Assembly (NCBI RefSeq): GCF_021134715.1
Contig: NC_060022.1
Coordinates: forward strand, 4,345,001-4,409,000
DNA: 64,000 nt
Reading direction: 5' to 3'
DNA from: Daphnia pulex
Lineage: Eukaryota; Arthropoda; Branchiopoda; Diplostraca; Daphniidae
A program made the translations under genes and the position numbers. Below the pieces are notes generated by a model. It had not been told where the DNA came from, searched no databases, and worked only from the letters and a program-made list of their open reading frames with translations. Below are positions 3,301 through 6,300 of the stretch, piece by piece (positions within the stretch are counted from its first letter, which is position 1; every line of letters begins with the position of its first letter).

Positions 3301-6300
3301 TCTGACATGATGAATGTGGGTTGTTCCGGGGAGTAGATCCCGACCAGTCAGCCGACTCGACTCTTTTCCTTTATGAATCCACTGGCGGTGGAGATTTGGC
3401 TGTACGTCATGGCCGCCTACATCCTGGTCAGTTTCACTCTCTTTGTCATGGCCCGCTTCTCCCCTTACGAGTGGAACAACCCGCATCCGTGCAACGGCGA
3501 CAGCGACGTGGTCGAGAATCAGTTCTCCATCTCCAACAGTTTCTGGTTCATTACCGGAACCTTTCTCCGTCAAGGATCGGGACTCAATCCAAAGGTCTCT
3601 ACTAACACCCACCCGAAATTCTCCCAAAAAACATTTTTTATTTCTTTTTTGACCGCTTGAACCTCAAATATTTCTACCCGTACATCCTCCACAAGCTCTC
3701 ACCAACCCGCTCAAAAACATGTCAGCACCTATACACACGCAAACCCAACACAAAAAAACAAAAAAAACAAATCATATGCCATTGCTTCTACGCCAAAAAA
3801 ACCGGACAAAAAATAATTTCAAAAATGTACGGAACGTTTCAAAAGCTGCCCCCAAGATTTTTTCGTTAAAAACGGCTGGCGTCCTCCGTCAATTTTCCGC
3901 TTTAGAGCGTTCAGCAAGCGCTTTTATATATGCATATTCGTATGATCTAAGATATAGTATATTAGCTGTTTGTTAAGTATAGGTTTTGCATGCGAAAATG
4001 TTGAGAAAAGGCGCGGGAAATTCGAAATACGAAAAAAAACAGCCAAAACAAAAAACGAGTTGTGACCAGGTTCCGACGCCGACGCCGACGCGGCTCTTCT
4101 CTTTTATGAATCCGCTGGCCGTGGAGATTTGGCTCTTCTTGCTGCTGGCCTACGTCCTCGTCTCGCTCTCCATGTGGGTGGTGGCCCGCTTCACGCCTTA
4201 CGAGTGGCACGACAATGTGAACGGCAGCGGGTTGGGCAGCCGGTGTCACCACTGCCACCACTACCTGTCGGGCAGCATTAGCGGCGGCATCAACCAGATC
4301 ATGCAACAGCAGCAGCAGCAGAACCACCACCACCAGCACCAACTCAATCACGATGCCTTGTTTAGCAGCGATCAGCCGGTGCTGGCCAGCAGCAACGATT
4401 TCTCGCTGGCCAACAGTTTCTGGTTTACCATTGGCACTTTGATGCAGCAAGGATCCGATCTCAATCCCAAGGTATTTCGTTGTTCTGCGGCGGTGGCCGT
4501 CTGATCTCGAGAGAGGCCTTCGCTTCGGTCACAATTTCAAAAGTTTCAATCAGGCCCGCGATTTTTTTTACCGGAAACAAAAAATGAAAAACTTTTGCGT
4601 GCGTGTACCCGATTATTTTGATTTCTCTTTTTCTTTTTCGTTTGGGCGGCAGGGTTTTATTTCAATTTTGTGTGGGTCTTTCACCTTTTTTTTTTTTCTT
4701 TTCCACCAGACTTGTTTCTTCTTTGCACTCGTACGAGTTACATCAAAGCGAATTGCGTTCCGGCGGAAGGTTTGATGCAATTACACGGCGGTCGAATTAT
4801 AAGTCGACGTCGATTTCTAATCAGGATGTAATTAGAATCTGAAAATCCTCAACTTCTTTCCCCCCTCCTTTAAAAAAAATGCAATCTCAGAACCGTATTG
4901 TTGCAAATAGTTCGAAATACCGCTAAATACTTGTAGACGAGCGCATTAGCATTCTAATGCGGCTTACCGCATCTTACGAATTTCCCCCCTTTTTTTTCTC
5001 GTCCCAAAATCAATTCAATCAAAAAAGCAGAGTCTTCAAAGGCCAAAGCAACGTGATTGGTTTCCATAGTTTTCTTTGTTCCTTTTTTGCTTTTTTGAAC
5101 AAAAAAATTTTAAAAATTGAAACTGTAATTTTCCCTTTTGATTTTCTCGAGCTGCAGTTTATACGTCATAATACCCAATATCAGAGCTCAATGAACGCAA
5201 TTATTTTTTAAAATATTATTTTTACTGCAGCCTTATGATTTCTGTTAGCCCTCAATTCCCCCCCCCCCCCCCGATATATCGCTCCCCAAACAAACCTTGT
5301 CGCGTTCTGCTTCTGTTGTCTTGAGCCAATAGACTTCTGTATGAGTAGCGGCCAGCGGTTGATACCAAGCTGGCCCAAGTCGTTCCATCTGTCACCAAGA
5401 AAGACCAAAAAAGCCATTTTCATTTGGAAAAAAAAAGACCTTAATAATTACACAAGTTCACCACCACCTGCCGAGGCGAGTCTGTGCTAATGTATTTTTG
5501 CTTTTTTTTTCATTCACCCCCCTAAAATCACGACGTCTTCATCGATTGACGATGATTGACAGTGATTGTGCATAAATAGAGGCTTCAGTATACTATTTAC
5601 GCAAACCAATTAGTTGTATCGATCCAACATCATTTGGCAGTTGTTTTTTCTCCTCGAATATAGAATCGACATTACAGTGTACGATGTGTAATGGCTTACC
5701 CGCTTTTTCCTCGCTCCTTTTATATGCCAACCTTTATATACATCGCTGTCATTATTTACACAACATATCTATTGCATAATATTTTTTTTTTCCAAAATTC
5801 CATTGGCTTGTAATTGATAGTGGCCCTTGTTGGTGATCGCTGTGAGAATTTCGCATTTTTCTTTTTTTATTATTATTATTCTTCGTCTCTTCGTTATTTT
5901 ATTCTCGTTCGTTTTTCCCCCGTTTGTTTTTCTTTTATTCCCGAACTTTCCAATTCATTTCTCCCATCATCATCCCGCTCCTCGTTTCCTCCCGTTTGTT
6001 TGTGGGCCCGTGTCTTGTGTTTTTCTTTCCTTCTCTGGTTGTTATTGCTCACGTGATGGGACTGTGTGTTTTCTATTTCGGTCCCGGATAACATCGGGAC
6101 GATTGCATGAAGCAAAAAAAAAAAAAATAATAATTTGATCAGGAACCGTGGGATTTTATATATTCATTCAGCCTCTTGTTTTTTTTTTTCTTTTAAATAT
6201 TTTTTTGAAAATGTTATTTTTGACTTTTTCATTTTTTTTTATATGCGCTAAAATATCTCTATGGAACTTTCACTCTCGTCGTCTCTATAGTCTCCTCTAT

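Follow-up and report, generated by a model that had tools for sequence, protein, structure and literature searches.

The pore exons of a kainate-type receptor gene

The window, by which we mean the whole stretch of 64,000 nucleotides of Daphnia pulex DNA that was analysed, carries in its first 10 kb, on the + strand, the 3' part of a gene for a glutamate receptor of the kainate type (Table 1). Its isoform A scored 634.6 bits with GluK2, compared with 536 for GluA1, and, judged by the nearest solved relatives over the region from S1 to M4, the gene belongs to the kainate and not to the AMPA class. At the cytoplasmic tail (9581-9592), two 5' splice sites lie 6 nt apart, by which Val-Arg is included or left out; this fits the proteins P0098 and P0097. 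A comparison of the window with Rfam gave no match at the gathering score.

Table 1. Exons of the receptor gene, in positions of the window
Feature	Position	Strand	Evidence
Upstream coding exon, ligand-binding part, S1 side	364..567	+	P0121 404-471, 100% match
Upstream coding exon, S1	1833..1926	+	Splice borders, frame, tblastn with P0121
Upstream coding exon, S1	2114..2223	+	Splice borders, frame, tblastn with P0121
Common exon preceding the pair, ends ...SILFK, phase 0	2346..2450	+	Splice borders/frame; tblastn
Exon A: pre-M1, M1, linker and pore; Arg at the Q/R site (3568-3570), Gly at +4	3337..3594	+	Frame, borders, D. pulex proteins, GluK2 alignment
Exon B: segment equivalent to exon A; Gln (4445-4447), Asp at +4, His/Gln-rich linker	4070..4471	+	Frame, borders, D. 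pulex proteins
Common exon following the pair: M3 and the beginning of S2 (AASTRIVGG...)	6722..6919	+	Splice borders/frame; tblastn
S2 exon	7726..7951	+	Splice borders/frame; tblastn
S2 exon	8104..8183	+	Splice borders/frame; tblastn
S2 exon	8447..8531	+	Splice borders/frame; tblastn
M4 exon	8953..9053	+	Splice borders/frame; tblastn
Cytoplasmic tail exon, end at 9586 or 9592	9431..9592	+	Sequence versus P0097, P0098
Last coding exon, with stop codon	9821..9892	+	Sequence versus P0098; tblastn 9815-9889

An earlier sequence-only reading of this DNA had claimed two homologous exons of the same phase for one and the same M1-pore segment, with Arg and Gly (+4) in one and Gln and Asp (+4) in the other. 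Indeed, exons A and B each fit in phase 0 and with AG/GT borders into the gap from 2450, where the preceding exon ends, to 6722, where the following one begins. They are 258 and 402 nt long, both lengths are divisible by 3, and neither exon contains a stop codon when read in the frame of the preceding exon. Their DNA aligned in a block of 130 nt with 75% identity and a block of 74 nt with 73% identity, the order of the blocks being preserved, and a homology of this kind, read from the alignment, is not due to chance. Among 75 aligned codons, 31 were identical, 18 differed silently and 26 changed the residue. The Arg codon is CGT, the Gln codon is CAG, both are in frame at the positions in Table 1, and the local pore sequences are FLRQGSG in exon A and LMQQGSD in exon B. 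The borders are backed by the proteins as well, since P0121 contains the whole of exon B and P0097 and P0098 the whole of exon A. Both parts of the claim were thus confirmed.

The two exons differ most visibly in the M1-pore linker. Exon A has kept a linker of the GluK2 type (NPHPC...VEN), whereas that of exon B is longer and rich in His and Gln (4195-4400). The linker of the Gln exons of other genera is also long and variable (segments of 85 to 166 residues); the Arg exons had 84 or 85 residues throughout the 18 genera compared.

For RNA editing as a means of setting channel conduction, the Q/R site is the classic example. Exon A aligned to a full-length GluK2 chain without a gap (query residues 8-121 to chain residues 551-664), with its residue 78 (Arg) at GluK2 621 and its residue 82 (Gly) at GluK2 625. 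In the available part of the source, GluK2 621 is given as the edited Q/R position (PMC3391646). The selectivity filter of GluK2 is described, in the accessible passages of a further paper, as being built from the side chains of Q621 and E625 together with backbone carbonyls, and spermine contacts Q621, Q622 and E625 (PMC11599716). Since the side chains at 621 and 625 make up the filter, exon A replaces both of them, whereas exon B retains Gln and an acid. The pair thus offers Gln or Arg at the position equivalent to GluK2 621, the two residues between which RNA editing switches in the vertebrate subunits GluA2, GluK1 and GluK2, going by the portions available of PMC3391646 and PMC8257547. However, the Arg of exon A does not arise from a Gln codon by A-to-I editing but is written as CGT in the genome, and therefore the switch in the window is not classed as editing. 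In vertebrate editing, a single base is altered and the acid at +4 stays; in Daphnia, separate exons are written in the DNA, about 86 or 134 residues are exchanged at once, and the acid at +4 is gone with Arg.

The coupling of the two filter positions was found far beyond the window. In 269 pore segments from 191 retrieved proteins, many of them close relatives, there were 118 with Arg and 151 with Gln, three of the latter being of the AMPA type as judged by the residues at +3. Gly was present at +4 in 118/118 Arg segments and Asp in 149/151 Gln segments. A linked change at the I/V site of GluK2 was also considered, but Val was found in 115/118 Arg segments and also in 83/151 Gln segments, and this site was rejected as a marker of the switch.

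Distribution and age of the exon pair

The sequence-only reading had proposed a search for a second pore exon in other crustaceans and insects, and the pair was in fact present in many of both. Among the best 120 of 981 matches to the Arg exon, crustaceans were represented by Penaeus, Cherax, Armadillidium, Artemia, Pollicipes and five species of Daphnia, and insects by dragonflies, damselflies, mayflies, orthopterans, a stick insect, termites, hemipterans, a chewing louse, beetles, wasps, ants, bees, a moth and flies. Going by these protein matches, the exon pair is no quirk of Daphnia but is also found in decapods, an isopod, Artemia and many insect orders. In Drosophila, CG11155 and its orthologues are alike in this respect: both exons are present in GJ12536 of D. 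virilis (P0051), and the CG11155 protein of D. busckii (P0083) matched the Arg exon over its whole length with 88% and also has the Gln motif. In the available passages of papers that name CG11155, it is placed among the kainate subunits, with no mention of pore exons.

In 18 chosen genera with both exons, the mean core identity to Daphnia was 94% for the Arg exon and 72% for the Gln exon, and the core of the Arg exon was the better conserved in 18/18. Over its length, exon A was identical to the other 18 genera in 71/84 to 80/85 residues. Because the Arg core outranks the Gln core in every one of these genera, exon A does not look like a relic.

Insects have a second kainate gene with an Arg/Gln pair of its own (for example, P0023, P0028, P0078 and P0091). 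In a tree of the pore segments, one group took in the Arg exons from Pollicipes and from both kainate genes; as a whole, this group does not appear in the list of nodes supported at 80 or above, and the rows P0008 and P0038 in it spanned both exons. With these rows corrected, the tree with the best likelihood was one that unites all Arg exons, and a separate doubling of the exon in each kainate gene was rejected (p-AU 0.0125, pore residues included). When the pore residues were removed, the test no longer told the two trees apart (p-AU 0.257), and the result of a single origin thus rests partly on the pore residues. A tree of S2, from which 5 of 34 proteins were dropped since the stretch was missing (P0004, P0005, P0023, P0044 and P0053), divided the two kainate genes at modest support values of 0.79 and 0.87, and Pollicipes was outside both. 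The simplest reading of these trees is that the exon would have been duplicated once, before the split of the kainate genes and no later than the base of Pancrustacea. The base of Pancrustacea dates back about 500 million years.

Some of the retrieved proteins deviated from the common pattern. In beetles, the Arg exon of the second kainate gene (P0078, P0089, P0090, P0091 and P0093) has the sequence LRQASG, LRQPSG or LRQTSG; it has lost the filter Gly at +2 and may be decaying or have another role. Isoform X2 of Bombyx mandarina (P0003) carries the Arg exon twice, as identical tandem copies, and lacks a Gln exon, which is either a duplication or an artefact of assembly. In P0002 (Cherax) and P0095 (Pollicipes), a stretch of the ligand-binding S1 is repeated ahead of the pore exons, as if this part had been duplicated in tandem, too; in the Daphnia window, no second copy of the S1 exons such as that of Cherax was found.

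Exon use in protein models and a second pair in an AMPA-type gene

The protein models of D. pulex among the matches listed use one exon or the other. Isoform X1 (P0121) has exon B only, P0098 (X3) and P0097 (X4) have exon A only, and no D. pulex model with both exons was among the matches listed (best 120 rows, 90% clusters). Moreover, P0104, from a relative, is a continuous frame of 727 residues on a contig of 2,236 bases that reaches the C-terminus and is identical to P0098 in 635/727 residues. In it, exon A is joined straight to the M3 exon and exon B is absent. Since the part of the corresponding D. pulex stretch that lies in the window is spread over 12 exons, the contig of P0104 looks like a spliced transcript. 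As pointers to exon use, the models and this contig are indirect.

Among 182 retrieved proteins, the Arg exon, the Gln exon and M3 were found in one chain in 78; 57 had Gln and M3, 29 had Arg and M3 (some of these may have a Gln exon that the search pattern missed), and 18 were partial or odd. The rows are 90% clusters shown by one member each, and the query scores both copies, by which double models are over-represented and ranked first. Exons A and B together preserve the frame in the window gene. The double proteins include two of the second kainate gene, P0047 and P0053 (Clastoptera), the chain of the latter being cut by the pattern before M3. P0053 is an entry of UniRef only, with no contig; such entries presumably derive from transcriptomes, and P0053 would then be a real transcript with both exons. 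Some double inclusion would not be a surprise, since wrong combinations of the flip and flop exons amount to up to 12% in human data, as stated in the part available of PMC8257547. Exons A and B are adjacent, homologous and of the same phase, as is expected of a mutually exclusive pair. The single-exon models of D. pulex, with A or with B, speak for the switch by alternative splicing that had been read from the sequence; strict exclusivity does not follow, with 78/182 of the proteins being double.

D. pulex has a second case. In a gene of the AMPA type (L039; C8:10227001-10234000, minus strand), tandem exons encode late S1, M1 and the pore. The upstream exon (C8:10230768-10230410) reads NSLWFTLGSLLRAGN, with Arg at the Q/R site and no acid at +4, and the downstream exon (C8:10230182-10229758), with Gln, reads NSLWFALGAFMQQGSD. 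They are 359 and 425 nt long and, because each length is a multiple of 3 plus 2, both exons together or neither of them would break the frame. The Arg exon is used by isoform X2 of D. pulex (P0183), whose best matches were AMPA receptors, by two proteins of D. magna, by one of D. carinata and by P0187, a frame of 390 residues on a contig of 1,557 bases; an AMPA-type protein of Artemia has Lys at the Q/R site. A search for this type gave nine proteins, of which seven (Daphnia, Artemia and P0187) had Arg or Lys and the two weakest, from a mite and a snail, were Gln types. The AMPA-type pair begins further upstream than the kainate pair and is outside of it in the tree, which argues for an independent origin. 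This second pair in branchiopods suggests that a switch of this kind may have been favoured more than once.

Probable selection of the filter by splicing, and its alternatives

We consider it probable that, in the kainate-type gene, exons A and B serve as alternatives for the pore, of which normally one enters an mRNA, and that splicing sets the filter. At the two filter positions defined by side chains, isoform A would then present Arg and Gly and isoform B Gln and Asp, and a cell would pick its filter by splicing a whole pore cassette and not by editing one base. We infer that exon choice would be strictly exclusive and under the control of the cell type and that it would change permeation.

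Arg forms of such receptors are known for weak polyamine block and a small conductance. By analogy with the edited subunits of vertebrates, receptors of A subunits are predicted to be weakly blocked by polyamines, with nearly linear currents, to have a small conductance and probably to admit less calcium, and B receptors to be blocked by polyamines and to pass calcium. Arg at the Q/R site abolishes the calcium permeability of receptors with edited subunits, chiefly GluA2, according to the text available of PMC8257547. In GluK2, editing in M1 (I/V and Y/C) has been linked with a higher calcium permeability (PMC3391646, as far as that text is available), and exon A has Val and Tyr at these sites. 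The effect of Arg on calcium is therefore not simple in a kainate receptor. Weak polyamine block and small conductance of isoform A are the safer predictions by this analogy and reduced calcium entry the less safe one, and the calcium part of the sequence-only reading is less certain than was stated.

The main rival also takes the pair as alternative but assigns to exon A a role in assembly and trafficking: A subunits would be poor homomers, be retained or act as partners of low conductance, and would set the number or stoichiometry of receptors more than selectivity. Arg at the Q/R site slows the exit of GluA2 from the endoplasmic reticulum, and the loss of both Gln and the +4 acid in exon A is harsher than editing, where the acid stays. 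However, the remainder of exon A is highly conserved and like that of GluK2, as in a working pore, and we regard a role in assembly as unlikely.

Doubt is greater still about exon A being an added cassette, with functional mRNAs that carry A and B in tandem and encode an extra membrane hairpin before the Gln pore. The double protein models, P0053 among them, and the length of both exons as multiples of 3 agree with it. However, the D. pulex models among the matches listed (90% clusters) have one exon each, P0104 has A without B, and double models rank at the top since the query scores both copies and clusters display one member. Also, a chain of M1-pore-M1-pore-M3 would be at odds with the usual topology, and both exons together would break the frame of the AMPA-type gene.

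That exon A is a relic or pseudo-exon out of use is hardly credible and largely contradicted: its 5' splice site (AAG/GTCTCT, the border being after AAG) and the 3' sites of both exons are, by eye, far off consensus, but it has no stop codon, is conserved in 18 genera and is used by protein models and by the spliced-looking contig of P0104.

A pairing of introns was considered as the mechanism of exclusion. The intron between A and B (from 3835 on, about 3835-3894) and the downstream intron (from 6332 on, about 6332-6391) can form a duplex of -49.2 kcal/mol, a value that was reached by 0/20 and 0/105 shuffles, and each of the two stretches occurs once in the genome. However, 13/96 real pairs of the same size from elsewhere in the window reached -49.2 kcal/mol, and the candidate was dropped. 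Pairing of the A-B intron with the upstream intron was at the level of chance (7/20 shuffles).

For splicing of pore cassettes as a wider pancrustacean means of setting filter charge, we see about even chances. The kainate pair would have had one origin, before the split of crustaceans and insects and before the gene duplication, and the AMPA-type pair of branchiopods an independent one (with Arg in Daphnia and Lys in Artemia); the choice would be written in the genome, with the Q/R site coupled to +4, and would do the job that editing does in vertebrates.

Mutually exclusive exons in ionotropic glutamate receptors are also known from flip and flop of AMPA receptors, as covered in the available text of PMC8257547. 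Flip and flop lie at the end of S2 and alter gating, whereas the Daphnia exons carry M1 and the pore filter. The tandem exon 8 of the insect nicotinic alpha6 subunit extends to the pore-lining segment. It belongs to a different receptor superfamily and holds no Arg/Gln choice at a filter but, like the present pair, it is old, being older than the radiation of insect orders by the accessible part of PMC1919356. In the searchable parts of open-licence full texts, where the string "Q/R" is unsearchable and from which subscription journals are mostly missing, we came upon no account of an arthropod receptor with Arg/Gln pore exons. The statement that such exons are undescribed in arthropods thus stands within these texts and not beyond. 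The pair is real and old and apparently an undescribed variant of a known theme; the sequences of the isoforms are already public in protein databases, even if the switch has gone unremarked.

An Arg/Gln pair that is written in the genome and common to crustaceans and insects is a natural comparison of splicing with editing at one filter position, with the residue at +4 included. Judging from its spread in both groups, arthropods may tune their receptors by splicing. Now that the gene group (CG11155 of the fly) and the exact exons are named, a cell-by-cell setting of glutamate-receptor permeation by splicing is testable in flies, bees and crustaceans.

At the other kainate-type loci of D. pulex, on C6, C2 and C7, no second pore exon was seen. 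One of them (L011; C6:4289001-4298000, minus strand), about 50 kb off the window, is a kainate paralogue whose pore comes only in the Gln form, and this pore is interrupted by an intron between GT and LMQQGSD.
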